Assembly: GCA_027475525.1 (NCBI GenBank)
Contig: JAMWFC010000049.1
Span: forward strand, 1,489,297 to 1,553,296
Source of the DNA: Macrolepiota albuminosa
Lineage: Eukaryota > Basidiomycota > Agaricomycetes > Agaricales > Agaricaceae
Length of the DNA stretch: 64,000 nucleotides
Direction of reading: 5' to 3'
The position numbers and the translations under genes are program-made. The notes below the pieces were generated by a model. It did no database searches and had not been told where the DNA came from. It worked only from the letters and a program-made list of their open reading frames with translations. Shown here piece by piece: positions 20,150 to 49,640 of this stretch. How positions within the stretch are numbered: position 1 is the stretch's first letter; every line of letters begins with the position of its first letter.

Positions 20150-21021
20150 ATGGATGATCCAGATGCACGTACCAGTGGCTTTTCGTGGCAACGAGATCGG
20201 GTGTCAGATGATTGGCAAAGATCACTAGAATATGCTCAAGATACTCTATTAAGAGCAAAGATGAAAGAAAGGGTGCTGTTTTTGCAGGACGAGCTGTTGT
20301 CGCTGGCGAAACATGCAGGTTCGTTGTGCGTCGCTCTGCAAAACCTTCAATGACGAGTAGACTGTTTTAGACCTATCTTTATCACAAATCATGGACGTGT
20401 TCAAGGTTTTAACACTGACTTACCCGCGATATCCTGACAACGCATCGCGAGATGCAGTCGAAGCAGTCGGCATGGAGTTGATAAGGAGGGACGAACTACG
20501 GGGGTTACCAGACGGCACGGCGAGCGAAGTCAAGCTGGGCGTCACAGAGAAGATCCTCGGCTGGCTCTCAAACGAAGTCGCGCGTCTCGTAAAACGCGGT
20601 TCTCCGAGGTCAGAGCCAGATTCTGTCCTGATCCCGATGATCGCGTGTTCAATTTCTATTCCCCTTCATTCTAGCTCGTACGCGTCTTCAGACCTGTTTG
20701 TACTTTTGAGTTGGTCCTGTGGAATATACACTACCTGTGTCAACACAAATCCTGAATTTTCGTCCCTGAACGTTTGGCGCGTGCTTGTGGGATCGATGGC
20801 AACTTTGCTGGACATGATCAACGCCTCAGCAAAGGCAAAACAATCACTGGTGCATGGTGCTTTGGTACGCGTTAGACGTGCCCTGCGTTCGGTAAGAGAA
20901 GTTGGACGCGTGTTTCGCGTTGCATGTCTTGACAATTCGAGCAGGCCGGGGAGAAGATACCGACGTTGATTAGTACTTTGTTAGCCATCACAAAATCGAG
21001 CCAGTCCCCGCTTAAAATGAC
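20150..21021 (+). CDS. GCN1: Gcn1 translational activator, 5' segment (before Copia insertion)
   Basis: N-terminal part of Gcn1, the large HEAT-repeat ribosome-binding protein that activates the eIF2-alpha kinase Gcn2 under amino-acid starvation. Exons: 20,150-20,318, 20,371-20,608, 20,675-20,891, 20,945-21,021, separated by GT-AG introns of 52, 66 and 53 bp that keep frame. Recognisable stretches are FKVLTLTYPRYPDNASRDAV and VWRVLVGSMATLLDMI. The fourth exon reads GEKIPTLISTLLAITKSSQ and is cut after codons K-M-T by the Copia element at a duplicated ATGAC. Its second half resumes at 25,851 with LLLGVSVSVLVRLKNV in the same frame. The reading continues across the deleted insertion, so the gene was intact before transposition. 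Confidence 0.88.
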
Positions 21022-21182
21022 TGTTAATAATAGAGATTAGATTCAACTCAGAAGCGACCACAGATAATGGTAAGCGACTGAGGTGCGTTACGGCGAAAAT
21101 TGTAATATTAGTAAGTGAAAGTATAAATAAGGAAATTGATCGTGATTGAATAACAAGAGGGATGTGGAGGCCTATCTCAACA
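21022..21182 (-). repeat. Copia 3' LTR
   Basis: 161 bp, the downstream LTR in the element's own orientation. Reads as identical to 25,685-25,845. The polypurine tract lies just inside it, at about 21,183-21,195 on the plus-strand map. Confidence 0.93.
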
Positions 21183-21211
21183 CTCCCCCTGGACTCGCAT
21201 CCCGAAGTCGA

Positions 21212-24200
21212 TTAAGTTGAATAGGACATACCCATATCAACTATAAGTTTTTCAAGCCGAGGACGTGGTAACGCTTTCGTAAAAATGTCGGCAACGTTTT
21301 CTTCAGAGGGGATTGGTTCCACGTGTATGTCCCTATATCTGACTGCTTCACGAATCCAATGCACCCTGACGTCGATATGCTTGACTTTGCTGTGGCCACT
21401 GGTATTTTTCGTAAGCGCTACGGCCGTATTATTGTCGCACCGAACTGTTAAAGGTCGATCCACCTGTATATCCACCTCCGCGAGCCATGAGAACATCCAG
21501 ATAGCCTGCTTCCCTGCCTCAAACACACCGATGTACTCTGCCTGACCGGTCGACGTGCTTACGTGATCCTGAGTCTTCGCCTTCCAGCTTACAGGCCCTC
21601 CAGCCATGTTAAAGACGTATCCGGCCGATGACTTACGAGTATCCGGGTCGTCGGCATAAGATGAGTCGGAGAATCCATGTGGTTTGATGTCCCCACCCTT
21701 TCGGTACGTGATGACGAGATTCTTCGTGGTCTTTAAGTACGCAAGGATATGTTGGACTAGACACCAGTGGACTGGACGGGGGTCTTCAGCGTAACGCATC
21801 AATACCATTACCGCGAATGCAATGTCAGGACGCGTTCCATTGGCAACATGGTTCAGCATTCCCAGGGCTTTACGATAGAGTTTATCTTTCATGAAATACG
21901 CATCTTTGGCGGGAACCGGCTTAGGTTGGGAATCGGACAGGTTGACGTTGGCAGGAAGCGGCGTGTATTTTGGTTTAGCGTCCTCCATTCCAAAGGTTGA
22001 TATAGCCTTCTCAATCAATTGTTTTTGATGAATTGTAATGTCTCCGGTGTCGCTGGTGATTATGGATATACCAAGAACCTTATTCGGTTTCCCCAAGTCG
22101 GTTATTTCGTATACTCCACCTAACTCCTTCTTGGTAGTATCCAAGATTTCATCAGATGTGGCGCCCATCAAGACGTCATCGGTATACGTCGAAGATAGTA
22201 AGTATTCCCCGTTATGAGTCCATTTTATCCGAATACAAACGTCGGCACGAGATTGACGATGACCCTGTTTAATGAAGGTTTTGTTGAGTTCATGAAACCA
22301 ATTATTCCCACCGTCCATCGTTCCGTAGATAGTATAGTTCATTTTTAAGACGGTGTCGACGTTATTGATTTTATAGTGGTCTTCAAAGCCTTCAGGTATC
22401 TCGAGATAATTTTCACCCTGGGGTTTTGCGTTGAGATAAGCGCCGACGAAGTCGATTAGGCCAAGTTTTAGTCCGCGAGAAGCAATTATAGCCAATAGGA
22501 TTCTGACGGATTCATACCTGACGACAGCCGCAAAGGATTCTTCATAGTGTTCTCCTAATTTTTGAGTGAATCCTTTCACTACGCTTCGCGCTCGTCGTCT
22601 AATGAGAAATCCATTTCCGTCAACCTTAAGATCGAATACCCATTTTGTCTTTATGGTATTGATTCCAGCAGGGCGTGGAATTGGCGTGACAACTCCTCGT
22701 TCATCCCATCGGGCTATTTCCGCTTCCATCGCAGGTCTCCAGAGGTGACGCCTGATTTCGTCGTCTGCCTCGGCAAAGTTTATTGGGACAAAGCGATTTT
22801 GGGGTTCAGGAGGTAATCCTACAGATAGAGCGGCTGGAGTCTCAGGGACATCGGTGTAATGGCTATGATTTTCGTCATCACTCAGGGTCGTGACGTCGGA
22901 GAGATTTCCATCTAGTCCAGTGCCGACTAAAGTTTTCTCGATTAGTCGTGCTGATCTTCTCGATGCTGCAGGATATACAATGCGAGGTTTTGACTTTTTT
23001 GGAGCGGGAGGTGGCTCGATTAGAGGTGTGGTCTCGTTTGTTGGAGTTTTCGGTGGCTCAGGTAGCATTTGGGCTGGTCTGGGTTCATCAGTGATGATCT
23101 CGTTGACTTGGTCATCCGTTTTCGAAGGAGCTGGATTATTTAGGAAGTTATAGTCGGTTTTTTCATTGGTTATTTTGATTCCATTATACTCCCCCTCAGC
23201 TGTGAGGGAACGGTGACCAGATCCTTCTTCAAAACGAACATCCCGTGATCGGACTACTTCTCCAGTCTCGGGTATCAGTATCCGATAAGTACCTTGACCT
23301 TCGATTCCAATCAATCGGCCCTTGATAGCCTGCTCAGACAGTTTGCCTCCGCTTCGTTCCCTCAGCACATGGACATATGCGATCGAGCCCCATACACGTA
23401 TGTGTCCGACGTCCTGTCGTTGACCAGACCATTTTTCCTCAGGTATTGATCCAGGATGGCGGCTGGATGGTAGACGGTTTTCGACGTAGTCTGCGAAGTC
23501 CCAAGCCTCGGCCCACCATCTCACAGGCAGCCTCGCATCCATCAACATGGCCCTGACAGCACCAGTCGTGACGCCAATCGATCTCTCAGCAGTGCCGTTC
23601 GACGCAGATGAGTATGGGACAGTCGGGTCGAATATGAGGCCTTCCTCACGGAAATAGTTCTTCCATAAAGTACTATGGAATTCCGGTGCATTATCAGTAC
23701 AGATAAAGACCATTATATGGCCAGTGATTCTTTCTGATTCAGCCTTATAGGTTTTAAATGCTTGGAGAACAGTTTCCGTGAGTTGATTTTGGAGGAAAAA
23801 GGTACGTCGATGCGAGGAACCCCGATCGTGGAATTTCATGGCATACACAGCACCACCAACGGATTTTACTTGAGCTGGACCCCACAAGTCTATATTCGTC
23901 GATCGCAGGACTATGGTCTCGGGCATGGGACTCCCATCAAACGGTCGTCGTTTCATATTCGCAACAATACAGTCCTCACATTGGCCTGTAGTAGTCTCCT
24001 GTTTGATGATGAGACCATCAACGAGCTTTGATGCTTCAATGATACGCGAGATTCCGAAATGGGAGAAGCGTCGGTGCCATGTGGTTATGTCTACCGGATT
24101 TTGGAGTGATCGAGCTGTTAATGCTGCTGGGACAGGTACAGTAAACGATCCCGAGATCAGATACATTCCGTTTTTCAATTCGCCGGTGAAGACTTTGACC

Positions 24201-25594
24201 TTATTGTGGAAGAATCGGACCTTTCGATCACCAAAGACTGAGTGCCAACCAGCGAGATCCAATTTACTGATCGAAATTAGGTTTGCCGTTACATCAGGGG
24301 CATGAAGCGCATCCCTGAACATCAACGTATGCTCTTTTCCGCCGTTGATCACCCTGATGACAACATTTCCTATCCCTAGGATTGTGAAGTTCGCACCCTC
24401 TTTCGAGGATTGACCAACCAGTTTGGCGACTGATTTATAATCGACAAACACTTCACGATTCCTAAAGAAGTGCGTCGTACACCCAGAATCTGCAAACGAG
24501 CATGACGGATTAGGGGCTACGTTGCCAGTTGTGAGTGCGACACGTTTTAGCGAAGGTACGTTATCGTGATATATTGCATCAGAGAAGTTAGCAACTGATG
24601 CCGACAGCGCAAAGTGGCTACCGAGTACCACTGCACCATCAGTAGTTGCGGAAGTGAATGTTGCCGACGGAGGAGACACAGTCCGTTTGCCCTTCCACCA
24701 CGTTGGGTATTGACCTTGTTTGCCGCCACCCTCTTGGAAGCAATCGGATTGGACGTGGCCATTTCTTTTACAGTTTGAACACTTTTTGTCAGAATTGTTA
24801 TTTGCCCTTTTCGACAAGCCATTAACCTGGGCTTGTAATGCCTGGATCGTAGCTTCAAGGGCTTTTACGGTATCGGCAGCTGCCGTGGACGTGCCGGATC
24901 TGTTCGCGATGCGTTCGCCATGTGTAGTCAGGGTCTGGATAACTTTAACCAGGTCGATTTCCCCATAGAGCGTGGATACGATTGGGTCCCAAGATTCAGG
25001 GAATGAGTCCAGTAACTTGACGATAAATCGCTCGTCTGTGATGTCAGCGCCTGCATCGTTTGCTGCTTTGCGCATCGTCCTCATTTTCTCGATATGACCC
25101 CCCTCTCCGGCTACTTTATTTCCGTCGACATATTTGCACTCCGCCAATTCCCTTTCCCTCATGTTTCTTAACCTCTGACTTCCAACACCGTATTGCTTAT
25201 TTAGGAACGCCCAGGCCTCATGCGAGGTCCCATCAGGGTTGATGCCTGATCCAGCGATGTCAGACAAATTGATCAAGATTGATGACAAAGCAACGCTTTC
25301 GCGGAGCTCGTATTCAAGCTCGTTCGGGTTACGCGAGTGTACGGGGGTTGGTTGAGCTGATGCAGAGGGGGAAACTTCGGTCAAAATGGGCAGCGGTGAC
25401 GGTGATGATTCGGTAGGAGCTTCATCCTTTTTGGGTCGTAGAGATACTGGTACAACAATTTTGTCTTCCCAGTAGTTTAGTAGCCCTCGAGGTTTTCCGT
25501 GGGCAATCATATTGATTTTCCAGCTCGCATAATTTTCGTGGCCTTTGCATTTTTGATCCTCAGACAAGGAAAACGGCAAAAGCATTGAACTCAT
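21212..25594 (-). CDS. Ty1/Copia Gag-Pol polyprotein, intact (1460 aa)
   Basis: A single open frame carrying all Copia functions in Ty1/Copia order. A Gag region (about aa 1-260) is followed by a zinc knuckle CSNCKRNGHVQSDC (about 270). The retropepsin active site is FADSGCTTHFF (about 370). The integrase has the zinc motif H...CEDCIVANMK, then catalytic D (NIDLWGP), D (FICTDNAPEF) and E (NGTAERSIG). Reverse transcriptase shows KTKWVFDLKVDGNGF, RRARSVVKGFTQ and the catalytic YTDDVLMG (about 1138). RNase H has GFSDSSYADD and STGQAEYIG. Integrase before RT separates Copia from Gypsy. No stops or frameshifts are seen, so the protein could be active. The start Met lies 91 nt inside the 5' LTR boundary. 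Confidence 0.96.
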   Translation of the reverse strand: MSSMLLPFSLSEDQKCKGHENYASWKINMIAHGKPRGLLNYWEDKIVVPVSLRPKKDEAPTESSPSPLPILTEVSPSASAQPTPVHSRNPNELEYELRESVALSSILINLSDIAGSGINPDGTSHEAWAFLNKQYGVGSQRLRNMRERELAECKYVDGNKVAGEGGHIEKMRTMRKAANDAGADITDERFIVKLLDSFPESWDPIVSTLYGEIDLVKVIQTLTTHGERIANRSGTSTAAADTVKALEATIQALQAQVNGLSKRANNNSDKKCSNCKRNGHVQSDCFQEGGGKQGQYPTWWKGKRTVSPPSATFTSATTDGAVVLGSHFALSASVANFSDAIYHDNVPSLKRVALTTGNVAPNPSCSFADSGCTTHFFRNREVFVDYKSVAKLVGQSSKEGANFTILGIGNVVIRVINGGKEHTLMFRDALHAPDVTANLISISKLDLAGWHSVFGDRKVRFFHNKVKVFTGELKNGMYLISGSFTVPVPAALTARSLQNPVDITTWHRRFSHFGISRIIEASKLVDGLIIKQETTTGQCEDCIVANMKRRPFDGSPMPETIVLRSTNIDLWGPAQVKSVGGAVYAMKFHDRGSSHRRTFFLQNQLTETVLQAFKTYKAESERITGHIMVFICTDNAPEFHSTLWKNYFREEGLIFDPTVPYSSASNGTAERSIGVTTGAVRAMLMDARLPVRWWAEAWDFADYVENRLPSSRHPGSIPEEKWSGQRQDVGHIRVWGSIAYVHVLRERSGGKLSEQAIKGRLIGIEGQGTYRILIPETGEVVRSRDVRFEEGSGHRSLTAEGEYNGIKITNEKTDYNFLNNPAPSKTDDQVNEIITDEPRPAQMLPEPPKTPTNETTPLIEPPPAPKKSKPRIVYPAASRRSARLIEKTLVGTGLDGNLSDVTTLSDDENHSHYTDVPETPAALSVGLPPEPQNRFVPINFAEADDEIRRHLWRPAMEAEIARWDERGVVTPIPRPAGINTIKTKWVFDLKVDGNGFLIRRRARSVVKGFTQKLGEHYEESFAAVVRYESVRILLAIIASRGLKLGLIDFVGAYLNAKPQGENYLEIPEGFEDHYKINNVDTVLKMNYTIYGTMDGGNNWFHELNKTFIKQGHRQSRADVCIRIKWTHNGEYLLSSTYTDDVLMGATSDEILDTTKKELGGVYEITDLGKPNKVLGISIITSDTGDITIHQKQLIEKAISTFGMEDAKPKYTPLPANVNLSDSQPKPVPAKDAYFMKDKLYRKALGMLNHVANGTRPDIAFAVMVLMRYAEDPRPVHWCLVQHILAYLKTTKNLVITYRKGGDIKPHGFSDSSYADDPDTRKSSAGYVFNMAGGPVSWKAKTQDHVSTSTGQAEYIGVFEAGKQAIWMFSWLAEVDIQVDRPLTVRCDNNTAVALTKNTSGHSKVKHIDVRVHWIREAVRYRDIHVEPIPSEENVADIFTKALPRPRLEKLIVDMGMSYST

Positions 25595-25672
25595 GCTTGA
25601 TAATGGGAAAATATTCTATTGAGTCGCAGGGGTCTTTGATGATCGCAAATCTTCTATTAATTGGAAGGGACG

Positions 25673-25684
25673 GGGCCCATAACC
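25673..25684 (-). promoter_or_regulatory. Copia primer-binding site (initiator tRNA-Met half-molecule)
   Basis: On the minus strand GGTTATGGGCCC directly abuts the 5' LTR end. The plus strand reads GGGCCCATAACC, the anticodon stem-loop sequence of eukaryotic initiator tRNA-Met including the CAT anticodon. Copia elements of insects and fungi are known to prime from an internally cleaved tRNA-iMet. The conventional CCA-end complement (TGG...) is absent. Confidence 0.88.
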
Positions 25685-25845
25685 TGTTAATAATAGAGAT
25701 TAGATTCAACTCAGAAGCGACCACAGATAATGGTAAGCGACTGAGGTGCGTTACGGCGAAAATTGTAATATTAGTAAGTGAAAGTATAAATAAGGAAATT
25801 GATCGTGATTGAATAACAAGAGGGATGTGGAGGCCTATCTCAACA
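25685..25845 (-). repeat. Copia 5' LTR
   Basis: 161-bp LTR upstream of the polyprotein in the element's orientation. It carries the element promoter. Reads as identical to the 3' LTR at 21,022-21,182. Followed by the second ATGAC target copy at 25,846-25,850. Confidence 0.93.
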
Positions 25846-28800
25846 ATGACGCTATTGCTCGGCGTCTCTGTCAGTGTCCTGGTACGACTGAAAAACGTCG
25901 ATACCGAACCCTCCTTGCGACTTACTCAAGAACTAAAAGTAGGAGTCCTCCTTCCTTTTGACAACCGTCTACTCACTCCAATCAGGACGAAATCATTGCC
26001 TCTTACTCGACCCATGTCTTAATGTCAAAAGTTGCGATTCCGCCCTACATATCCGTACGTACATCTTTTAACTACCTTAAGACAATCCTGACGAAATCAG
26101 AACGCGTATAGCGATTTCATAAGTAACTTCGTGTCAGAGCAAGATTTCCTCCAGTCGATACTTCCTACGATCGAAAAGGCCGTGCTACGATCTCCCGATA
26201 TTTCCTTGCCACGTTCGTTAACCTCTTTATCTAAAACTAACCGCTGACTCGAATGCTAGTTATCTCCAGTTTCATCTCCGCCTACGCCCGCCCTCTCACC
26301 ACGGATGTCTTTTGTCGCATCCTCACGCAGACTCTCAACAGCGCCAAATCCAGCAACCCCTCGACTCGCGCGGGCGCCATTGAACTATTCAAAACACTCC
26401 TCCCTGCCAATGCTCCCTCGGAGTTCACTACGCACGCAGTCACCGAGCTCCTCGCCCTTCCAAAGACCGGAAAGACCACTGGGCCAGACCATCGTATTGC
26501 ACTATATACAATGGTCGCACATCTAGTCCCTTCGTCTACTATCTCTGCCTCCCTCGTCCAGACAACGACCCCGCTTCTTGCGAAAGAGACGCATGAAGGA
26601 GCTACGGCAGTCCTTGCAGGCGCTCTCGCCTCGCACATAAGATTCCTCCTTAAAGATCCCGCGTCGGGTACGGTGACTCCAGAGACGACAGCACTTATCG
26701 CGAAGGAAATGGGTAACGTGAAGCCGGGGGTGCGCCGTGCGTTCTGTGTGCTGGCTGGTACAATCTTCGTCTGCGGGCTCGATTTTGGGGAGGATCAGGC
26801 ACTAGGTTTCGCAAAGGCGATCGTGCCGGCGCTAGAGGGAAACTTGAAGAATGTTTCTGCGAATCCGCTGAATGCCAGTGGGGGGCCTCTTGAGGCTTAT
26901 ATCGCGACAACGGTGCTATTGGGTCCGCTCGCGAAGACCGGGAAGTTCAGTATGTTGCTACTTGCGTTGTTCCTGCATAGACTTATATGGGACTCTTCTT
27001 ACTTTGGATGATCTCATTTCAAGGAATCCGGCGTTGACTTTGATCGCGTCTGGATCGACGAAAATTTCGTTTTTGTTGTGGGACAAGGTGTATCAGAAGT
27101 TGAGCGATCCTATGGACGAGAAGTGGCTCTTGAAAGCATGGGAGGCGGCTTTGTTCTACTTCAAGAACGATTTTACGAAGAACGAGAATCTTCGGTGCGT
27201 TCTTTGGTTAGACATTCACGCCAACAGCCAACTGACTTGAATTCGTAGAACACAGCTTAGTCTCGTACTCATCCATCTCTCCCTGGATGGAACCACACCG
27301 GAGATTCGCCGAGAGGTCAACGCTGTTGTCGAACGGAGCACGGCAGCGCTTCCTGATCTCACGAATTGCATCATTCGTGATGGGCTCGCCTCCTTCCTGG
27401 CGTGCGGACCGCCGACTCTAAAAACTGCTGCGTCGACGTCTACAAACGAGACTTCTACTCTGTGGACTAAGCATTCGCGGCTCTCGAATCTGTTGCTTAG
27501 TGCTGTTTCCTTCCCAGAGGAAACAAAACCCGAAATCAGGGAAAATATCGTCGTTAATGCCATCCTTCTTGGTCACCACCACCTCATCTGTATATTCTAT
27601 TACCTCTATATCCATTTAATTATTGATTTCGACTTCTTAGGTGGTAATTCTCGGCAAACGTGGATCGACCTGTGTCAACGAGCACGTCTGGACCCGCATG
27701 AATTGATCACTAACCATCTAGACGAGCTTCTCGACCTCATTCTGAGGGGATCGGATGCAGATACCAAGGTGAGGGGTTGTTGTTACATTCGATGCTTGAC
27801 TATGACTGAAGAATATGTCCGAAGTTCGGCTTTGCAGACGCAGGCTACAATGCCATCAGCACTTTAGCATTCGTCGCCCCCGAGGAGGCTCTTCCACGCG
27901 TTATCGATCAATTACGTGATGATATAAACCCAGTCGTAGTCAATGCTTTGACTGAATTTGACTTTGTTATCTGGCTAACGCCTGCTGGGACGACCTATAT
28001 AGATGGTTGGCCGTTGTTCTGCTTGAGACGTCTTACCTGCTAACGCGAGGTCCTCGTCTAGTACTTGCCTCAAAAGGTGAAGGGAAAGTTGCTATCAAGG
28101 GCAAGGATGCCGAGCTCGCGAAGTGGGATGAAGAAATTCGGAAGAATATTGCTGCGAAGAAAGCGGCCGCCTCGAAAACGCTGACAAAGCAGCAACAAGC
28201 TCTCGTTAATGCTCAGCTTGAGGAAGAAGCAAAGGTTCGGCAGCATGTTGCCAATGTTCAGACAAAACTTCGCCGCGGTCTTCGCTTCGTGCAGAGTCTT
28301 GCTGGCTTGGGCGTCGACCAATTTCGAGACCATGTTTCCTCGGTTGCTTCGTTGATCTTGGAAGGCGCGTTGGGTCGTGGTTTGGCGTTAGTCGGAAGCT
28401 TTCGAGACTTACCTGGTATGTCGCGGCTGACTGAGATTTACGTCGGTTGTTCTCTTAATGGTCTTGATCAGGACCTGGCAAAATGCACTTCCGAGAGAGA
28501 CTTGACACCTTCCGTAAGTGGGTCGGTGTGGCAACCCTTCGTAGTCTGGAGGTCAATGTCGTACCCGAGGAACTCAAAAGTGAACCCTTAAACCGTAAGC
28601 ATTTTTCTGCCTTCCTCTCTAGGTCAACACTGAGATAGGTAGATAGTCCTGATTATTTGTGTTCTCTTGCGACTTCAAACGCTCTCAGAGCAGGCGCCGT
28701 TTGATGTCGCGACATTCTCATACGCATATCCTTTGCTAGGGCAAGTGTTACTTCAAGGCGGTATCTCAGCGGAAGAAGAAGACGCACTCGAACAAGTTGC

Positions 28801-31800: not shown

Positions 31801-32724
31801 CTCTTGAACAGGTCCGCGCTTCTACGGTATTCCCAGTTCTAATTCCTACATTGACGGCGCTTCTGATGACCGTTTTCAATGCTCATGCTCTAGCATCCTT
31901 AGTGACAGTTGCGGGAAATGCTTTGAGTCGGCGGTTGACTGCCATTTTGAATGTCCTCGTCAAAACATGGGAAGATCACAACAGCGAAGAGCTACAAGAG
32001 GCCCTGGACAAGACCCTGCATTCCATTCTCGCCTCTATATCTGACCCTGAAGGTCTTAACACCCTCATGTTGACTCTTCTTGGATGGTACGTCTTCTGAA
32101 AGGCTCTCGAGTTGTATATTCTGATTACTACTTGCAGGGCCAAAAACGAATCTCCTAAACGGTGTGTCAGTGCCTCAAAGTTCTTCGCTGTCTTCTGTCA
32201 AGTTTTCGAGCTGGACTCGTCACTATACCGTGTCGACTGGGTTCGACAACTCATATCATCCTTTGAAGACTCTCAAGTTGAAGTTCATACCGCAGCTTTA
32301 GAAGCCTTTGATATCTTTGTGAAATCCGTGCCCAAAGACGAGCTAGAGCCTCTCGTTGTGCCTCTTCGTCACAGTATTGAATCGACTGGCAGAGCCAGAC
32401 AGACTGTGCCAGGCTTCAGTCTCCCCAAGGGTATTGGCCCCACGGTGCCTATCATCATTGCAGGCCTGACTACAGGCAGCAACGAACAACGCGAGCAGGC
32501 TGCTTATGCTATAGGGGATCTTGTTGAGCATACTGAGGAGAGCGCGATCAAACCTTATGTGGTGCCATTTACCAGACCTCTTATTCGTGTGGTGACACAA
32601 GCGACTACTTACCCTCCTGCTGTCAAGATGGCCATCCTCAGTGCGCTAGCGACAATGCTGAAATGTATTCCTACATTTGTAAAGCTGTTCTTCCCACAAC
32701 TTCAACGGACGTTTGTTAAAAGTG
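25846..32724 (+). CDS. GCN1: Gcn1 translational activator, central segment (between the two insertions)
   Basis: Contains most of Gcn1 in many exons with short introns. Examples are introns 25,939-25,985, 26,055-26,100, 26,213-26,259, an unusually short one at about 26,950-26,980 (31 bp), and 27,195-27,248. N-terminal HEAT segments include TLNSAKSSNPSTRAGAIELFK. The best conserved part (about 29,053-31,020) covers the EF3-like HEAT region and the start of the Gcn2 RWD-binding region. Motifs seen are FDSPKYATRRGAAYGLAG, YEPRQGVMFAFE, LLGMMAYCSPRQLS and KKKAAQIVGNLASLTDSKD. In yeast Gcn1 these map to about residues 1330-1640 and beyond. The last exon runs to TFVKSV at 32,724, where the Gypsy-1 LTR supplies an immediate TAG. 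The 5' end of this segment is the second half of the exon split by Copia. Confidence 0.92.
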
Positions 32725-32960: not shown

Positions 32961-33091
32961 TTTTTTTGAATCCGCCAGCTAGGATCTATTGCCTAGCATC
33001 CGACGTCAGTCGTTGAGTTCGTTGACAGAACTCTATCAGCTTCTCGAGCTTCTTGCACAGCCACACCGTGCAAATTTCAAACAGGGGATCG

Positions 33092-34504: not shown

Positions 34505-35129
34505 GACGAGGGCAATTATGCCCACAGTCGACACGGCAATCGGGGGTCTCGACCCCCTGGAGCCACACATCCGAAGAATGCTCGGCACGATGCAATCAAG
34601 ACGTCGGAATCAAGCTAGTGGAGGCACTAGCACGGGCGCAAGAAGTGCCCGAAGTAAGACCGGTGAGTACTTTCTATACTCCAGCAGGACAAGGGTGGCG
34701 TGAGGAGCCCCCGCACATGCGTAACCATGACCGTAGGACAGATATGTCAGGTCCGGATGGGCACAATAGCACTGTGCTCAAAGTGGAAAGCGAGGCATCC
34801 GTGATGCCGTGCGTGCCCATGGCCGAAACGTTGAGCGACAGAGTCGCGTACCAACGTATGCGCAATGGCGACCTCAGGACTAAGGGACAGTCCTTTATAG
34901 ACGATCAGGGCATCGTATTCGAGGGCACTAAGCCCATTGACGAGATGCGTCATCAATTCGTCACGCAGGGTCAGGAGAATCAAGCTTCTCCAGGTCCAGG
35001 GCGGCGCAACGATCATGATCGAGGAGACTTCCTCGATCGAGATGGCGCCATGAGACGTGATGTCCCTGGTAACAGCCGGGATGACGGCCCTAGGTCGATT
35101 CCTCGAGACGAGGGCAATTATGCCCACAG
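33932..35129 (+). repeat. 599-bp tandem duplication within Gypsy-1 gag
   Basis: Copy 1 is 33,932-34,530 and copy 2 is 34,531-35,129. They align base for base over most of their length. The differences are dominated by CG in copy 2 against TG or CA in copy 1, for example AATCGG against AATTGG, CTCGACC against CTCAACC and GACGTCGG against GATGTTGG. Copy 1 therefore looks selectively deaminated. Confidence 0.85.
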
Positions 35130-37002
35130 TCAAGGAGGCTCGGGACGTCCCCCGCAAGGTGGACGGGGAAAGTCACTTCCCCATGCCGCTGATTTGGCGA
35201 CTAGATCCCCGGGTCAGCGGGAAGCCATCCGAATGCATCGTGAAGCCATGCACGATTGCCTGCATCGAGTAGTTGATGATGCCCTGGGCGTAACCTTACG
35301 GTTACCAGACGGAGTGAAGCTGCGTAAAGCAGACAGTAGGCACATTCGCGCCTATACAGGCGCGTCCAAGTTCAGCGACCTGGAAGATTGGGCGATGGAT
35401 GTATGCACCCATCTTGCCATGTGCTTATACGGAGGTGACCGTATGGAACGAGAACGAATTTTCGTTCTGCCTGAGTTCTTGGCCGGAGAGGCCATGGGTT
35501 GGTTTCGACGGGCAGTACTGCACGTCAATCGTGTCCAATATGACTGGACGTTTAAAGGAGTCCTTACAGGACTGTACGATCGATTCGTACACCCCTCAAC
35601 GCTCCAGGATGCAAGGCGGGACTTCCAGTCCGCCAAGTACACCGAGAAGTTGGGAGTACAAGGGTTCTATGATACCCTTAATGACCATGCCCAGAACATG
35701 GCAGTATACCCAGACGGGTATACAATGCTCGAAACGTTCTTGGATGGCATTCCAGTGGATATGCGCCGCTATTTGATACGTGAGGACGGATTGTCCCCAG
35801 AAGTCAACGATGTGGAAGAATTTGTGGCATATGCCATCCGGTATGAGCAGTCTCTGAAGACTGCTAACCACTACGAACATCGGAGTGGGCACAAAGGGGG
35901 ACCCAGGCGACTACCGCCTGGTGGGACACCATCACGGGGTCAGCATGTGGGGACCTTCCTGGCCAAAAAGACCGATTTGGACCGTGACCGCAACACGCAG
36001 TTTGTTGTACGCAGAACCCCTGCTGCGAACCGAGGGCTGAGCCGCCCACGCCCAGAGCGGGCGCCGGACGGCGAACGTCCTAAACCAAGGCCGGACTTCA
36101 AGCCGGCCAACCCACCGGGGCAGTCGGGGACTTGTTTCGCGTGTGGCCAACCAGGCCACTACGCTACCAACTGCCCTGTGAAGCCAGGACCCCCGAGGAA
36201 GGGGTATACACCCCGCGCCCACCTTCGAGCTGCACATACTGCAGCCGCGAGTGGGAGTGATGGAGACGTATCTGCCGAGTCTGAGGCGGAGCACCCCACA
36301 AACGACCAGGAGCCCCCAGAGGAGGCATCGGGCGCCGAGCCTGAGAGTGTGGTCGTGGAGGGGGAGGAGTACGTCACAGTCGACGTATATGACGACGTCT
36401 ATGACAATGAGTATTACAGTCACGACAGCGACTCTGAGTGCCTAGCGGCGATGATGGATTGGCCGCCCACAAATGATCCCGAACGGAATAACGTAGTTCA
36501 GATGAAGAAGGTGACCCTTCGTCATGCAGAGGGCACTTTGCAGCGCCCAACATTGAAACGAGCAGACAAGGAGTGCCTGGTCTCATATGTGGACGTAGAC
36601 GGCCACAAGGCATGGACCCTATGGGACTCTGGGAGTACCACATCGGGCATAACACCCCAGTTCGCCCATGTGTACGGAATATCCGTGCAGGAGTTGGATA
36701 CACCATTGGCGTTACAGCTGGGCACCGTAGGGAGCCGAGCCATGGTGCAGTATGGGACAAATGTGAATGTCCAAACGCCGGGCTCACGTAGCCAGGAATA
36801 CATGGATGTAGCGAACTTCGATCGCTACGATATGATACTGGGAACACCATTCATGCGGCGTAACAAAGTCATACTAGACTTTGACCAATGTCAGGTACTA
36901 GTGAATGGGAAAGTGATCCCAGCCGAACGAGCAACAGCAGACGACACTGATAATTGTCTGCGATGTCATCACACTATGGAGAAACGCAAGGACTCTCCAT
37001 GA
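34501..37002 (+). CDS. Gypsy-1 Gag-protease
   Basis: Open for 833 codons. The frame opens inside the duplicated segment, so the true N-terminus is uncertain. Capsid-like helical region at about aa 240-480 (KFSDLEDWAMDVCTHLAMCL, GEAMGWFRRAVLHVN). Zinc knuckle CFACGQPGHYATNC at about aa 545-558 (nt 36,134-36,175). An acidic linker is followed by a retropepsin-like domain at about aa 700-810, with catalytic LWDSGSTTSG and the distal MILGTPFM flap/hydrophobic motif. It ends at TGA 37,000-37,002. The frame is the same as that of Pol, so the two are separated by that single stop, which is followed at once by a 7-bp stem-loop. Confidence 0.88.
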   Translation: MRRGQLCPQSTRQSGVSTPWSHTSEECSARCNQDVGIKLVEALARAQEVPEVRPVSTFYTPAGQGWREEPPHMRNHDRRTDMSGPDGHNSTVLKVESEASVMPCVPMAETLSDRVAYQRMRNGDLRTKGQSFIDDQGIVFEGTKPIDEMRHQFVTQGQENQASPGPGRRNDHDRGDFLDRDGAMRRDVPGNSRDDGPRSIPRDEGNYAHSQGGSGRPPQGGRGKSLPHAADLATRSPGQREAIRMHREAMHDCLHRVVDDALGVTLRLPDGVKLRKADSRHIRAYTGASKFSDLEDWAMDVCTHLAMCLYGGDRMERERIFVLPEFLAGEAMGWFRRAVLHVNRVQYDWTFKGVLTGLYDRFVHPSTLQDARRDFQSAKYTEKLGVQGFYDTLNDHAQNMAVYPDGYTMLETFLDGIPVDMRRYLIREDGLSPEVNDVEEFVAYAIRYEQSLKTANHYEHRSGHKGGPRRLPPGGTPSRGQHVGTFLAKKTDLDRDRNTQFVVRRTPAANRGLSRPRPERAPDGERPKPRPDFKPANPPGQSGTCFACGQPGHYATNCPVKPGPPRKGYTPRAHLRAAHTAAASGSDGDVSAESEAEHPTNDQEPPEEASGAEPESVVVEGEEYVTVDVYDDVYDNEYYSHDSDSECLAAMMDWPPTNDPERNNVVQMKKVTLRHAEGTLQRPTLKRADKECLVSYVDVDGHKAWTLWDSGSTTSGITPQFAHVYGISVQELDTPLALQLGTVGSRAMVQYGTNVNVQTPGSRSQEYMDVANFDRYDMILGTPFMRRNKVILDFDQCQVLVNGKVIPAERATADDTDNCLRCHHTMEKRKDSP

Positions 37003-37004
37003 CT

Positions 37005-37027
37005 TGGCCGGTGCAGAGTGCCGGCCA
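37005..37027 (+). promoter_or_regulatory. Stem-loop directly after the Gag-Pro stop codon
   Basis: TGGCCGG (37,005-37,011) pairs perfectly with CCGGCCA (37,021-37,027) around a 9-nt loop, two bases after the TGA at 37,000-37,002. Gag-Pro and Pol are in one frame across it. This arrangement would suit stop-codon readthrough, by analogy with gammaretroviral gag-pol. The alternative is that the TGA is a decayed CGA and the stem is fortuitous. Confidence 0.4.
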
Positions 37028-40000
37028 TGGAGGATGTGGAGGAGGAAGTGCAGGCTATGCCTGGACTGAGAGCAGACCACAATGTGGTAATGATGAGCGA
37101 GGAGGAGTATCAAGCCTCCAAGAGGAGCAACGAGCGAATAATCGCTCCTGAGATTCGAGGCACAAGGCCTCCGGACAAACGCCATCAAAAGGCGAGACGA
37201 CGGGAGGACTCAGTGGATGTATGTCCACCTACGTCCTCACGAGTCAAGTTGGAAGACTTGAAAGACAGCATCCGAGAGGCGGAAGCCTCAGTAGAGGGGG
37301 ACACACGGTCCCTATGGGAGCGACCAGCTCCCCTACCGGAGTACGACTGGGCATACGACCCCCGAATGCTGCAAGAGTGGAACGAGCTGGTGGCAGCCAC
37401 GTGTGCGCAAAATGCGCACCAGAGACAGATGACCGTCAAACCAGCATATCGCCAGCCAGCCCCGGACGAGGTATCCATAGCATACTCGCTTGTACGTGAA
37501 GGAAGAAGCCTCGTGGCTTATAAGACAGCGGCAGCGGGTGCTCCGCTGAGACTACATATACCTGATGACAGTGTCAATCGGGTGCTCGCAATGCGCGAGC
37601 AGTATGCACCGCCGCCTCGGCCACCCTCAGAGACGGTGGAAGTACTTCCCCCGGTGCGTATGAAGGGGAAGCAGAAGGCGACAAGCCTTCGTGAGGAAGA
37701 TATTCCTCGGTTGCGTCAGCAATGGCAAGAAGAATTTGCCGACATGGTCAATGGGACCAAGGAGGAGCTCCCACCGTGGCGGGAGGTGAACCATGAGATT
37801 AATCTCATAGACGAGAACAAGCAGTATAAGTACCACTTGCCGCGCTGTCCGCGCGCCCTCCAGGAGCAACTACGCGATAAGACTAATCGCTATTTGAATG
37901 CCCAATGGTGGTCCCCATGCACCACCGCTCAAGCTGCACCGCTATTGTGCATCCCGAAGAAGGATGGAACCCTTCAAACAGCCCTTGATGCGCGTCAGCG
38001 CAATGACAATACCATAAAGGATGTAACTCCTTTACCAGATCAAGAGGTGATCCGGGAAGACGTGGCTTGGGCGAAGTATCGCTCGAAGATTGACCTTACT
38101 GACGCCTACGAGCAGGTGCGCATTCGCACTGAGGACGTTCCAAAGACCGTATTTGCGTTGATCATGGGTACATTCACGAGCAATATAATGCAGATCGGAG
38201 ACTGCAATGCTCCAGCAACTTTCCAGAGGCTAATGACCTCTATCTTCCGAGACGTAATAGGACGGTTCATGCACGTCTACTTAGATGACATATTCATCTA
38301 CTCGGATACTATGGAGGAGCATGAACAGCACCTCAGAGTCGTATTCGAACGACTGCGCAAATACAAGTTGTACTTGAAGTGGAAAAAATGTGAGCTCTAC
38401 GCTCAGAGTATAGACTGCCTAGGGCATGTCATAGACGAGCGGGGTATCCACCCTGATCAGGACAAGCTCGATCGTATTCGGGAGTGGTGCACGCCCCGAA
38501 ACTACAATGACATCCAACGATTCGTTGGCCTTGTCAACTACATATCGAGCTTCTTGCCCGATGTCACAGCCTATACTGGGCCACTTATGGCCATGACGCA
38601 GAACGGATCACCGTTCAATTGGAGGCCGTTGCACCAGCGGTGCTTCGAGATGGTCAAACGGATCTGTACAAAGACTCCGGTGATTCGACCAATCGACCCT
38701 AGACGGGACGAGCCAATATGGCTCATTTGCGACGCGTCCAAGACAGGCATCGGAGCCATGTACGGCCAGGGAAGCAGCTGGCAGACGTGCTGCCCAGCAG
38801 GGTTCATGTCGAAGAAGTTTACGACGGCCCAGCAAAACTATGCAGTGCACGAGCTGGAGACTCTTGCCATACTCGAGGCCCTCCTCAAGTGGGAGGATAA
38901 GCTGATGGGATACCCCATCCACATCATAACGGACCACAAGGCCCTTGAGTTCTTTAAAACTCAGGTGAACTTGTCGCCGTGCCAGCGACGGTGGATAGAC
39001 TACATGTCGAGATACCAGTTCGACATCACCTATGTTAAAGGTGAACTCAACAAAGTGGCAGACTGCTTGTCGCGCTACTTTGAGAGTGATGTAGTCGGGG
39101 AGGCTCACGAGCCTCATGAGTATGTGCAGGCAGACTGCCGCATAGACCCTGATGGAGAGGATTTACCTCTCCACCGATACCAGGAGCTCAGGGAGCATGT
39201 CCTGGAAGTACGCGCTATGCGTGATGATGAACGGAGGCGAAGCACTCGCCTCAGAGAGCAGCGTGAAGAACGGGACGTAGCCGCCCAGTTGCTCAAGGAG
39301 CATGAAGCCGTGGATCCAGCGTCCACTAGGGAGCATGAGCACCACGATGTACCCGTTACGCTTGCGGAGATGCTCGAAGGCGAATTGCCTTCATCCCAGC
39401 CTCCTAGCCTGGTCAATGACGACTTCCGGCAGGAGGTGGTGCAGGACTATGGCGATGATCCTCTCTTCGCCGAGATAATCGCCAATCCTGATGACCATCC
39501 TCGGTTCAGGCATGAGCCTGGTGGACTCATCACGACAGAGAACCGTCAAGGGGTGGCGGTGGTATGCCTCCCCCGTACGCGTACCCTTGTTACGCGGGTC
39601 TTGGATCAGGCCCATGCCCTGGTGGGGCACTTTGGTGCCGCCCGGACGTTGGGCTACATCCGGAGATGGTATTGGTGGCCACGTATGGCCCAAGAAGTGA
39701 CTAAGTTTTGCGCGTCATGCGCAGCGTGTCAGAGGGCAAAGTTGCCCCCTGGATCCCCTCCCGGGAAGCTACACCAGCTACCTGTGCCAGTGAAACCCTG
39801 GGACTCAATCGGAATGGACTTTGTAGGTCCCTTTCCCGAGTCCAGAGGGTTCGATTACCTCTGGGTAGTCATATGCCGCATGATGAGCATGGTGCACCTC
39901 ATACCGGTGCGAACTACGCTGACGGCTAAGGAGCTGTCGTGGATCTACCTGAGGGAGATCGTTAGGCTGCATGGGCTGCCTAGCACCATTGTAAGCGATC

Positions 40001-40905
40001 GTGACTCGAAGTTCACGTCTCAATGGTGGAAAGAACTCCACAAACTGCTAGGAGCGCGACTCCTCATGTCGACGTCCTTCCATCCTCAAACGGATGGGCA
40101 GACAGAGCGGGCTAACCGCAGTATAGGTCAGATTTTGAGGGCGGTTGTTTGCCCTGACCAACGGGACTGGGTGGACTGGTGTCCACTCACCGAGTTCGCA
40201 ATTAACGCCAGTGTCTCGGATACCACAGGGTATGTGCCCTTTGAACTCAACGGAGGGTACTTGCCCTCCATGCTGCACGAAGTTCGTGCTGATACGGTGG
40301 CTCACCGTGGAGTGGTCGAGTTCGCCAGGCAGGCCCTGGAGAACATCGCGGCAGCGCATGACGCCATCATAGAGGCGCGAGTCTTCCAGGCAAAAAACGC
40401 CAATCACCGTAGGCGAGCGGACCCGCCAATAGCAGTAGGAGCGTTGGTCTACCTATCAACGCGTAATCTGAAGCTCCCAAAGGGACGGGCGAGTAAACTC
40501 TGCCCAAAATGGGTAGGCCCATACCGCGTCCTAGACGCAGAGCCAAGTACCTCCAACTACGTGTTGGAGCTGCCTCTGGCATTACAGGAACGACGCATCG
40601 TTCCTAAGTTTCATGTGTCGCTGTTGCGACCTTACAGCGCGTCTGACGATGCGCTGTTCCCTAACAGGGCAACCCCGGGCCCCTATGATTTTGGGGCTCA
40701 AGACGATGACGAATGGTTCGTCGAGTGCATAATTGGGCACCGGTGGACTGAGCGTAACACGCTCGAGTTTGAAGTACGATGGTCCCTGGGGGACACAACA
40801 TGGGAGCCACACTCCCATTGCTCCAAGCTAGCGGCACTTGACCGTTATTTGGAGTTGAAGGGCGTTAAGCGCCCACATCAATTAAGTAAGCATGCCGGCG
40901 CTTAA
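37018..40905 (+). CDS. Gypsy-1 Pol: reverse transcriptase, RNase H, integrase, chromodomain-like tail
   Basis: 1295 codons, uninterrupted; the first ATG is at 37,027. RT spans roughly aa 300-480, with KIDLTDAYEQVRI and catalytic YLDD (about 421, in HVYLDDIFIYSD). RNase H follows at about 555-680 with WLICDASKTGIGA and an ITDHKALEFF motif. The integrase zinc domain is H...H...CASCAAC (about 875-910). The catalytic core has DFVGPF, VSDRDSKF and GQTERANRSI (the D, D and E residues). The C-terminus has a WFVECIIGHRW...FEVRW...TTWEP chromodomain-like fold, which in chromoviruses can steer integration to chromatin marks. RT-RNase H-integrase order defines Ty3/Gypsy. It is homologous to Gypsy-4 Pol at 62,567-63,943. 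Confidence 0.94.
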   Translation: MPAMEDVEEEVQAMPGLRADHNVVMMSEEEYQASKRSNERIIAPEIRGTRPPDKRHQKARRREDSVDVCPPTSSRVKLEDLKDSIREAEASVEGDTRSLWERPAPLPEYDWAYDPRMLQEWNELVAATCAQNAHQRQMTVKPAYRQPAPDEVSIAYSLVREGRSLVAYKTAAAGAPLRLHIPDDSVNRVLAMREQYAPPPRPPSETVEVLPPVRMKGKQKATSLREEDIPRLRQQWQEEFADMVNGTKEELPPWREVNHEINLIDENKQYKYHLPRCPRALQEQLRDKTNRYLNAQWWSPCTTAQAAPLLCIPKKDGTLQTALDARQRNDNTIKDVTPLPDQEVIREDVAWAKYRSKIDLTDAYEQVRIRTEDVPKTVFALIMGTFTSNIMQIGDCNAPATFQRLMTSIFRDVIGRFMHVYLDDIFIYSDTMEEHEQHLRVVFERLRKYKLYLKWKKCELYAQSIDCLGHVIDERGIHPDQDKLDRIREWCTPRNYNDIQRFVGLVNYISSFLPDVTAYTGPLMAMTQNGSPFNWRPLHQRCFEMVKRICTKTPVIRPIDPRRDEPIWLICDASKTGIGAMYGQGSSWQTCCPAGFMSKKFTTAQQNYAVHELETLAILEALLKWEDKLMGYPIHIITDHKALEFFKTQVNLSPCQRRWIDYMSRYQFDITYVKGELNKVADCLSRYFESDVVGEAHEPHEYVQADCRIDPDGEDLPLHRYQELREHVLEVRAMRDDERRRSTRLREQREERDVAAQLLKEHEAVDPASTREHEHHDVPVTLAEMLEGELPSSQPPSLVNDDFRQEVVQDYGDDPLFAEIIANPDDHPRFRHEPGGLITTENRQGVAVVCLPRTRTLVTRVLDQAHALVGHFGAARTLGYIRRWYWWPRMAQEVTKFCASCAACQRAKLPPGSPPGKLHQLPVPVKPWDSIGMDFVGPFPESRGFDYLWVVICRMMSMVHLIPVRTTLTAKELSWIYLREIVRLHGLPSTIVSDRDSKFTSQWWKELHKLLGARLLMSTSFHPQTDGQTERANRSIGQILRAVVCPDQRDWVDWCPLTEFAINASVSDTTGYVPFELNGGYLPSMLHEVRADTVAHRGVVEFARQALENIAAAHDAIIEARVFQAKNANHRRRADPPIAVGALVYLSTRNLKLPKGRASKLCPKWVGPYRVLDAEPSTSNYVLELPLALQERRIVPKFHVSLLRPYSASDDALFPNRATPGPYDFGAQDDDEWFVECIIGHRWTERNTLEFEVRWSLGDTTWEPHSHCSKLAALDRYLELKGVKRPHQLSKHAGA

Positions 40906-41007
40906 TTTGATCGGCAGTGCCGATCGCAGCTTGGCTGAGTTAGTCAGCAGCTGTGGCTGAAACACGTCTTAAAAGGCAAAATTTCTTTTTCGCTTTTTTC
41001 CCCAACC

Positions 41008-44000
41008 ATGGACAGCATGCCCGTGGACTTGAGTGAGCAGCAGCAGCAGCAGTTTGAGAGTACGCCGTCGGTCTTACCGTCGGCTGAAGGGGGGGGGCAG
41101 ATGGCTCCCCCGCTGACCCAAAATGCACCCCAGTGGGGACAATCGCAACCAGCTGTGGGCTTCCCACAGCAGCAGCAACCACCAGCGGCGGGCTACCTGC
41201 CGCAGCAGCCGGTGATCAGTGGCTATCCGCCACTTCAAACCATGCAGGGCAACTTCATGCCCCAGAACGCACCTGTGGGCGGCTATCAGCCCCAACAACC
41301 AGCACCGGGCGCTTATGCGCCACATCACACCGAGGGCCAATTCCAGCAACAGGCCTACGGGGGGCTAGTCAGCCCCCAAGCAGCGTCGGCATGGAGGCAG
41401 CTTGCCCCTGTACCGGCAACAGGGCAACTGGGGACACATCCTTTTCCCCAGTTTACCGCCCCAGCGCACTACCCTGGGATGGGTGGTGTGCCCGTAATGA
41501 TGCCATACCCCCCGGCTTGGATGGGGGCTTGGGGCGCAATGCCCCAGTACAGCGACTCGCATGAGTTGCAAGCCAAGGGAGGCCGGTCGATTTCTCTGTC
41601 AACCACAGCACCAATTGACAATCTAGAGGGATGCAAAGCATCCCTCGTGCAGGCCACCGCGGCCAGTGAGAGTACAGAAACTCTCAATACAGAACGGAGC
41701 ATCAGTTCATCGGCTGATGCGCTGACGGAGAGCTTGGCCAAGCTCTCCTTGCTACAGCGGCTGGAAATGCCGCACCCATCCGAGCCCAGCTCGGAAGAAG
41801 AGTCGCGTCCTCGACGCGACAAAGGAAAAGCACGGGCTGTCGAGCCCACTCACAGCCAGGACTTAGTCCTGGCTACCCTTCTCCAACGTCTGGGAGATAA
41901 CGGGTACGATGTACCTGCAGAGTCGTCATTCCTCCGCGATGCGGAGGCAGTCGTCCTCATCTGCCGGATGATGGACGACATGGATCATATGCGTGCTCAG
42001 CGCAAAACTGATCTCCTTGCCATTTCGGCTGCTCGTAAGCGGCAGATTACACCCCCGAGTTGGGACACCGACTCCAGCAAAAGGGCGCGTCGGCAAGGAG
42101 TGGAGGACGCGCCCTCCCGCTCGATTAAGTCGAGCGTTGCTGCCCCCGGCCGGGAGGCCGGTCTAGGACGGGACATCCTCCCCTATGAAGATGTTCCTGC
42201 TCCAGCCGCCCCCCGGCTTATCCAGCGCCTCGCCAGCGGTGCGTCTGAGGTCGCGTCTTCGCGACCAGTATCCGTGGTATCCACCACGTACTCTGGGGAG
42301 CAGAGTTCCAGGGGCGTGAGCACACGCCCCATTGAGGCCAAGGCCTCACAACCCCGAAAGGATTGTCGGGGTAAGCAACCGGAAGGGCGCGCCTACGTCA
42401 ACGTGCACTTCCCCGAGGATGCCCCGAAAGGGGCCCCAGGGGCTAACATCCCCTTTTTACCCGCTATACTGGTAGAGGGCCTGCCAGCCCGACTCCCGCG
42501 GTGTGTGTGGGCAATGGACCCACGATCTGAGAAGTCGGAGCCGGAGAGGCTGCCTTCCCCTCCCTCCGACGACGATTGGTATGAGGAGCCTGAAGAGGCT
42601 CGTATGGAATCCCCAGTGCCGCACAAGACGGCGGCACAGCGTATGGCACGCGAACGGTGCAACAGCAATCGACGAGCCAAGATGGAGCGTCGGGCGCAGA
42701 ACAGCGCCAAACGAGGGGCCGCCCTCCTTGAGGACGAAACCGGGCGCATCCCTGATGCGCTCGGTGTGGTGATCTACCGTGATCACACTATTGAGCGCCA
42801 GAACTCATTCTTTGGCGCGGGGTTGGCTCCCCAATTCTATTGGTCGCCAATGACCAATACCATCTTCGTTGGGCAAGAAGCCCGCGCAGCCAGGTCCTTC
42901 GAGGACGATAAACAGGGCAACGCCGCCGCGACGCCCCACAACAGTAAGGTGTACCAAGTTGCACCTCGCGGGTTTCCCCGCAGTCCTCGAGAAGTCCGCA
43001 GACTTCATGCACTGGTTAACAACCAGTTTACGCCGCTTTGTCAGCGTCAGTTGGGCTACCTCTTGCTCAACGAATTCAAGCGGGTGGCGCTCAACTGCCA
43101 CCCTACAGCCCGAGACAGAGCTATGTCTCATTTACTCGACGAGGTCGAGTATAGGACTATCGCGGTACCCTTCACGAGTCCAGAGGAGCGGGAGAACATC
43201 CCGCGAATGATTGTGCCATCGCGGCTCTATCGCCGCAAAGAGGGAGGGAAAATCGCCTTCGTCGGCCTTAACCCCCCTGATCCAAAGCAACCATTTGCTT
43301 TGGACTACCTGGGCTCATATGCCCTCCTCTATGGACGCCCTGGGACGTCCAACATGTGGACCGGTCTGGCCATGGACCGAGCCATGCGCATTCATTGGCG
43401 CAGCCTCTTTGGGTTTGCGCTTGTATGCGCCCTCAGCGCCAGCCGCCCCTCCAAGGCCACGGTACACAAGTACCTGGCCTACGTCTTCGCCAGGCCAGGC
43501 CTCTACAAAGAGGCCGTGGCTGAGTACGAGGCGGCCACGGGGCAAGCCTTCGAGCCTCTCCACGCCGACGACCCTACCTTCGAGGTTCGGGCTGTGGACA
43601 TCCCGGAAGCGTCAGCTTCCGTATTCACCACTTCGGACGTGTTACGCGTCCTTCTTCACAATCAAATTCCGGTCAGCTGGGCTGACCACGCGTACACTTA
43701 TGGGGTCACCTACTTGGCCCATCTATTCTTCAGCGACAGCCGGCTCTACAACGAGGTGGCTGCTATCGACGACAAGAGGCTACAACGGCCTCGACCACTA
43801 CGGTACACCCCAGTCCATCCCGCAGTGGGATGGGTGGCGCGAGGCCACCATTGGCGACCGCCAACGCCTGATGCTCCAGCAGCAGGACAGTCGTTGTGCA
43901 TACGACGACGCACTCGCCAAGGGGATGTACCTCTCTATCGGGCAAGACATTCATGCCCACAAAATCTGGACGCGCCAGTACCCATCCGACACCGGGGATC

Positions 44001-44233
44001 TGCCTGATCCCCAACCACCTGTCCCGGGGTCGACCATTGACCCCAATCTCACACTGTCCCCCCTCCGGGACTATGACGATTCCCTGCCAGTAGCAGGGCC
44101 TTCGGGTACTTCCTACGCGCCCGCACCCGAGGATGAACTCCTCGACTACGACATGGACGACGCGACTGCCGATCCATTCTGGGAGCCTGGGGGCTCTCCC
44201 ATTGCCCCCGTCCCTGACTTACCGACGGCATGA
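41008..44233 (+). CDS. Gypsy-1 ORF3, large protein of unknown function downstream of pol (one frameshift)
   Basis: I do not recognise a family. ATG at 41,008 in a good start context. The first about 130 residues are Gln/Pro/Gly-rich low-complexity repeats (EQQQQQ, QPQQPAPG). Residues 270-580 are polar with a nuclear-localisation-like KRARRQG. The C-terminal half (about 580-910) looks folded and is conserved in Gypsy-4, for example VYQVAPRGFPRSPREVRRLH, MDRAMRIHWRSL, ARPGLYKEAVAEYEAA, and PVSWADHAYTYGVTYLAHLF. The 41,008 frame ends at 44,007, but homology to Gypsy-4 continues in the next frame (to 44,233). This indicates a one-base frameshift near 43,770-43,800. No signal peptide or transmembrane segment suggests an envelope. 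It ends 45 bp before the 3' LTR. Confidence 0.75.
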
Positions 44234-44278
44234 CCGTCGTATTATCTCAAGACCGTAGCTCGGTCTGATTGGGGTGTG

Positions 44279-44514
44279 TGTAGCGTAGTCCGCTATGTGG
44301 CGTTGTCCATATAGCTTTACTTACCTTACAGTAGATACTATTATATTATATTTATTATAATATAATATTAATTTACATTATTATATAAATTAGTTTACCA
44401 GCTGCTTACAAAGCAGCTTATTTTTGTGTTGATACTACATAGTCAATAGACCGGACTGGTCTGATTCTGTGCAGTGTGAACCTAAGCTCTCACAATCTCT
44501 GTAACTTCGTTACA
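44279..44514 (+). repeat. Gypsy-1 3' LTR
   Basis: 236 bp, read as identical to the 5' LTR (32,725-32,960). Preceded by a G-rich tract (ATTGGGGTG) that can serve as polypurine primer. Followed by the second AAGTG target copy at 44,515-44,519. Confidence 0.94.
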
Positions 44515-44690
44515 AAGTGTGAGTGACCCAGCCAGTGTTGCAGTGCGAAATAAGGCAGTGGAGGCTCTGGGTGGTTTGATGAGGCATCAGCCACAAGTGG
44601 ATCCTGTTATTACAGAGCTGATCACTGGCGTGAAGAACAATAATGAGGTGGTGGCAAAGGTGTACAACTCATCCGTTGCTCTATTGAAAA
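44515..44690 (+). CDS. GCN1: Gcn1 translational activator, 3' fragment (after Gypsy-1)
   Basis: Continues the frame broken at 32,724: KSV joins SDPASVAVRNKAVEALGGLM then QPQVDPVITELITGVK. This is the HEAT-type region near the Gcn1 C-terminus, beyond the Gcn2-binding part. Similarity to Gcn1 fades after about SSVALL at 44,685, and the frame stops at 44,717. From there the sequence belongs to the minus-strand Gypsy-2. The natural C-terminus is therefore missing here, lost or displaced by a third transposon-associated event. Confidence 0.85.
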
Positions 44691-44769
44691 CACCCTGCAG
44701 AACTAAAGGACACATCTGATGGTTCTGCTACAGCTTCCACAGGCCAAGGACTCCTCCAAAGGTTCTGCT

Positions 44770-49607: not shown

Positions 49608-49640
49608 TAATATCAAGACTCTCTCCTTACACCGTTCTTG

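Follow-up and report, generated by a model that had tools for sequence, protein, structure and literature searches.

Does the window, a 64,000-nucleotide stretch of a Macrolepiota albuminosa assembly (C114:1489297-1553296; 100,137,612 bases in 129 contigs), hold a working GCN1 gene that was broken by two retrotransposons? An earlier note had taken the locus in this way, describing a Gcn1 coding sequence in three collinear pieces, split by an antisense copia and a sense gypsy element, as a conserved single-copy gene whose loss disables the starvation response in yeast. Pfam domains, strands, and exact bounds agree with the three pieces and the two elements (Table 1); the single-copy status did not stand, and a loss of starvation signalling was not supported. 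Very probably, the window contains an unprocessed duplicate of a CTK3-GCN1 segment that was already dead when copia and gypsy arrived, with a complete GCN1 elsewhere in the assembly and with the 3' half of the duplicate decaying at CpG sites. The striking claim of a lost Gcn2 activator is thereby replaced by an ordered history of duplication, death, split into two copies, CpG decay, and retrotransposition.

GCN1 copies and the lesions of the window duplicate

With the 5' GCN1 piece as a DNA query, six places were found in the assembly, the window copy counted in, and matches to the Gcn1_N family lay at the same six loci. The EF3-like HEAT region is present in four copies, the window's among them (all 13 candidates scored), with weaker matches of 27 to 29% identity elsewhere in these four genes and on two other contigs; a search with the GCN1 3' region returned four copies and two short matches (all 6 candidates scored). 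GCN1 is not single-copy in this assembly. The four copies with the EF3-like region are that of the window, copy B (357 kb downstream on the same contig, C114), copy C (C60), and copy D (C89); E (C90) and F (C115) are 5' fragments, 99.9% identical across 4.5 kb, of which the former holds approximately 2.8 kb extra. One of three guesses in the earlier note, a second gene copy to be looked for as an intact GCN1 in the assembly, was borne out by the complete copy on C89 and its near-twin on C60.

Table 1. Features of the window; positions count from its first letter.
Feature	Position	Strand	Remarks
Block common to window and copy B	17617-48270	+	Matches C114:1864267-1890032; private insertions in each; blastn and genome DNA search
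CTK3 copy (CTD kinase subunit gamma)	18893-19892 (approximate, open frames)	-	Pfam CTK3, CTK3_C
GCN1 duplicate, 5' piece	20150-21021	+	Start codon to copia target site; alignment with copy D
Ty1/copia element	21022-25845	-	LTRs 21022-21182 and 25685-25845; 1467-codon frame 21212-25615 (stop to stop)
GCN1 duplicate, middle piece	25846-32724	+	5-bp deletion, 2-bp insertion, and nonsense codon common to B
563-bp deletion point	29040-29044	+	5-bp microhomology; in window and B, absent from C and D
103-bp coding deletion point	31016-31017	+	In window and B, absent from C and D
Ty3/gypsy element (Gypsy-1)	32725-44514	+	LTRs 32725-32960 and 44279-44514; frames 34492-37002, 37003-40905, 40939-44007
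GCN1 duplicate, last 3' remnant	44515-44648	+	Gcn1 similarity ends at ~44648
1.9-kb high-copy CpG-poor repeat	44650-46552		GCN1 cut off there in window copy and B
Neighbouring Ty3/gypsy element, chromodomain	48826-59714	+	12 differences between its LTRs; 100-N gap 56965-57064

Both long terminal repeat (LTR) retrotransposon insertions in the window copy are real. The exact 5-bp target duplications and identical LTR pairs described earlier were recovered: ATGAC at positions 21017-21021 and 25846-25850 for the copia, whose LTRs end in TG...CA and agree at 161/161 bp, and AAGTG at 32720-32724 and 44515-44519 for Gypsy-1, whose LTRs agree at 236/236 bp. The unoccupied copia site reads ATGAC in B, D, and E and GTGAC in C, and the gypsy site is unoccupied in copies B, C, and D. 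The copia frame has Pfam matches over cut-off to Retrotran_gag_2, SH3_retrovirus, and RVT_2, with gag_pre-integrs below cut-off and no Pfam match to an integrase core. Gypsy-1 has the domain order protease-RT-RNase H-integrase (RT, reverse transcriptase), with protease, RT, RNase H, integrase zinc-binding, and SH3 domains over cut-off and the integrase core rve below it; its last frame, 1022 codons from stop to stop after pol, has no Pfam match. The closest relative of the copia LTR is a second LTR pair at C114:1007815-1012892, about 0.5 Mb away, with 99% identity over 139/162 bases.

Removal of the two elements restores the reading frame at both junctions, as had been claimed, but not elsewhere. 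The window copy has two in-frame stops at homologous codons, two small frameshifts, two large deletions, and no 3' end. The small frameshifts and the nonsense codon common to B, which corresponds to codon 1049 of the copy D gene model, are placed at about 28395-28640 as estimated from copy D positions. Gcn1 had been thought to extend to 44690; its similarity stops where the 1.9-kb repeat begins. Of 3309 candidates for this repeat 40 were scored, and among these another 38 matches measure 1.7 kb or more, with 92 to 96% identity. Copy B, which lacks both window retrotransposons, carries the older of these disabling lesions too, and they therefore predate the insertions. The biallelic sites fall in line, 193 of them grouping the window and B against C and D and 3 conflicting. 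Introns are retained in the window duplicate (938 aligned intron sites), which is best read as an unprocessed pseudogene; the dead copies presumably lack function. The CTK3 copy, arranged head-to-head with GCN1, likewise has a coding 1-bp deletion (frameshift) in common with B, and the block common to both is bounded by repeats in either copy. At window position 28264-28269, copy B has an insert of 311-316 bp with a short repeated target, probably a solo LTR.

Within the two LTR pairs there are 0 differences in 397 sites, giving a 95% upper bound on divergence of 0.75%, so that the insertions appear recent as far as LTRs tell and the earlier term "very young" is compatible with this bound. A caveat applies to it because the assembly has join artefacts of a k=77 type: LTR identity could partly be an assembly product. 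In 18 stretches including the window (207,804 bases), three exact tandem repeats with a unit in the range 20-599 were found, and in each the unit is 77; they lie at 49948-50103 in the window and at 5636 and 6065 of stretch L008. One of three N gaps, the 100 N at 56965-57064 of the window, has identical flanking 77-mers, which the other two lack. For these reasons the 77-bp repeats are treated as assembly joins, and they fit unmerged k=77 contig overlaps. Other LTRs of the Gypsy-1 family, a high-copy one (1057 candidates, of which 40 were scored), have unequal scores within apparent pairs, e.g., 427 versus 412 bits on C107, the pairing being inferred from spacing. Graph collapse of LTRs is thus not general, though it may have affected the window elements.

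Complete copies and selection

For copy D, a 25-exon spliced model of 2,623 residues terminates in a stop codon. Its local identity to Gcn1 of Termitomyces sp. T32, T112, Mi166, and T159 is 88, 86, 85, and 89%, respectively, and the T159 match covers 90% of the query; the source is accordingly a Termitomyces or something closely related to it, a mushroom farmed by termites. Relative to five relatives, and counting only differences where at least 4 of the 5 agree, the model has four extra runs (3, 22, 17, and 18 residues), taken as unrecognised introns, and lacks one residue. Copy C aligns with D in four pieces at 95 to 99% identity and is its near-twin. Apart from 77-bp repeats, it is free of in-frame stops at homologous codons; compared with D it has a 1-bp insertion, which sits in a run that 4 or 5 of the 5 relatives lack and is read as intronic. 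We considered but rejected the view that two 77-bp duplications really disrupt copy C, the pattern fitting unmerged k=77 contig overlaps. The complete gene on C89, with its near-twin on C60, presumably carries the function. The complete copies are approximately 97% identical to the dead ones.

The private changes of each copy, i.e., those found in it alone, differ strongly between dead and complete copies. Non-synonymous to synonymous counts are 10:39 in D and 9:27 in C versus 30:19 in the window and 26:25 in B (stops are included among the non-synonymous, one of them in the window's 30; opportunity is about 3:1). Pooled, this gives 56:44 in the dead and 19:66 in the complete copies (p ~3e-6); the non-synonymous share is low in the complete copies, and changes private to D and C are mostly synonymous. 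As the 125 private changes of the window and B comprise 113 transitions and 12 transversions, the neutral non-synonymous share was set at about 68-70% to allow for the transition excess (a transition weight of 5 gives about 70%). The window copy alone, with 30/49, fits neutrality (p 0.21 at 70%).

Some observations weigh against the preferred reading. The window and B together, with 56/100 non-synonymous, fall below the neutral ~70% (p ~0.003; 0.013 at 68%), and copy B alone falls short of it with 26/51 (p 0.005-0.015). Constraint acting before the copies died could account for this shortfall, and so could gene conversion from the complete copies. Moreover, copy C as assembled contains two exact 77-bp tandem repeats, one wholly inside a D-model exon, that break its frame; we read them as assembly artefacts.

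Decay at CpG sites

C-to-T changes at CpG make up 82 of 125 private changes in the window and B, compared with 12 of 116 in the complete copies. Counting C>T/G>A changes, 38/50 lie at CpG in the window and 44/51 in B versus 6/32 in D and 6/23 in C, or 82/101 in dead and 12/55 in complete copies (p ~6e-13); the bias is confined to the dead copies. It is regional as well. In the 3' half, 34 of 558 CpG sites are changed in the window and 42 in B, compared with 4 and 2, respectively, of the remaining 675, while C and D together have 6 changes at each of the two sets. From the GCN1 start to the B-insert site, the window and B carry only 2 private non-CpG changes between them in 3,282 sites, a near-identical tract that hints at gene conversion or a collapse in the assembly. 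The excess in the 3' half persists when only the 5' flank is taken for comparison (3 of 203 CpG sites changed in the window, 0 in B; p 0.007 and 2e-6, respectively). Just downstream of its insert, B has 16/246 changed CpG sites and the window 4/246 (p 0.01).

The CpG observed/expected ratio is 0.21 in the 1.9-kb repeat and 0.21-0.29 in the surrounding old repeats and unassigned DNA; in the copia, Gypsy-1, and the chromodomain gypsy it is 1.07, 0.87, and 0.99. Most likely, the 3' half decayed because it was methylated together with the neighbouring repeats. DNA methylase domains were matched four times on three contigs of the assembly (25-45 bits). CpG-directed mutation of repeats is described for basidiomycetes (PMC4352252), and work on another agaricomycete (PMC4014442) reports CpG hypermutation to be commoner nearer repeats. 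This gradient, together with a bias present only in dead duplicates and in the window and B separately, would also suit a process resembling repeat-induced point mutation (RIP) that senses duplicates, in place of slow deamination of methylated CpG. We consider such a process rather unlikely as a variant of this last step, as the complete copies are themselves duplicates yet have no CpG excess, and the bias does not run along the whole duplicate. The effect of the 5' base is weak (CCG 0.091, GCG 0.072, TCG 0.067, ACG 0.044) and not decisive either way.

History of the locus and known systems

The preferred history, in which the GCN1 copy was dead before its retrotransposons came, begins with an unprocessed duplication of a ~10.4-kb CTK3-GCN1 segment. 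The duplicate lost its 3' end and reading frame and became joined to repeats while it was still a single copy; the two copies present now, the window's and B, could be paralogs or alleles. Later, the window copy gained copia and gypsy, and copy B its LTR-sized insert and another gypsy-like element. The 3' halves of both are decaying as C changes to T at CpG sites, most likely through methylation with the neighbouring repeats or, alternatively, by the RIP-like process. The idea that the split between the window and B is younger than that between C and D was dropped: non-CpG private changes number 43 versus 104 overall, but 41 versus 55 outside the near-identical tract (p 0.18).

The alternative with which we began, a working GCN1 broken by the two elements, can cite that the elements, with their target duplications, sit cleanly within coding sequence, but it is extremely improbable, given the older disabling lesions in a copy B free of either element and the existence of a complete copy. 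Almost as little credit can be given to the whole configuration being an assembly artefact: the three exact 77-bp tandem repeats and the gap with identical 77-mer flanks speak for misassembly at places, but exact target duplications beside TG...CA ends, with matching empty sites elsewhere, are not expected from it. A variant of the preferred history deserves more weight, and we hold it as a tentative possibility a little short of an even chance: the window and B would be alleles, from the two nuclei, of a single dead locus that the assembly set one after the other on the same scaffold, with copia and gypsy heterozygous in one nucleus. The six GCN1 places form three pairs (window/B, C60/C89, and C90/C115), the common block is repeat-bounded on both sides, kinase-domain matches recur within contigs at constant offsets (506,815 bases on C92, 183,981 on C107), and the assembly measures 100.1 Mb compared with 70.03 Mb reported for Termitomyces cryptogamus v2.0 (PMC10021994). 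Against alleles stands that only repeats are collinear beyond the block; in the compared flanks (27.6 kb to the left and 33.7 kb to the right for the window, 25.3 and 15.0 kb, respectively, for B) no collinear non-repeat sequence was found, a weak objection since these flanks are repeats. The sequence at 60001-64000 of the window, tried as a single-copy anchor, matched a high-copy repeat.

The constant offsets on C92 and C107 could in themselves mean that large segments are duplicated within a contig or that alleles were set one after the other. A search for the RWD family, aimed at Gcn2 partners, gave four places above cut-off (28-40 bits), and an Rfam scan of the window gave no match at gathering scores.

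Going further, copies of the CTK3-GCN1 segment may have reached two or more additional loci, the dead copies recording a silencing that spread ~5 kb from repeats while the complete gene stayed free, and in the boldest form small RNA or methylation feeding back on the live GCN1; we regard this extended picture as distinctly improbable. Dead and complete copies in one assembly offer, on a small scale, a natural test of whether methylation associated with repeats extends into adjoining gene sequence in Termitomyces. A single literature search combining GCN1, pseudogene, transposon, and basidiomycete turned up a paper on ABC proteins (PMC4692070) and no matching case. The feature is ordinary in kind; what merits following is its CpG pattern, for which the complete copies of the gene act as controls.

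In comparison with known systems, the window elements share LTR pairs, 5-bp target duplications, and RT and other pol domains with Ty1/copia and Ty3/gypsy insertions generally; nothing essential differs, apart from the extra 1022-codon frame of Gypsy-1. Like an unprocessed pseudogene in a fungal repeat island, the window copy keeps introns and a neighbour gene and has frameshifts, a nonsense codon, and a truncation, and the window and B have a higher non-synonymous share than the complete copies; it differs from the usual case in that sister copies within a single assembly reveal in what order lesions and insertions arose. As in the CpG decay and RIP leakage near repeats published for Basidiomycota, as described in PMC4352252 and PMC4014442, the window and B changed from C to T at CpG, more so near repeats. 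Unlike the cases described there, the sequence affected here derives from a housekeeping gene as a duplicate that has died, and complete copies of that gene serve as internal controls.

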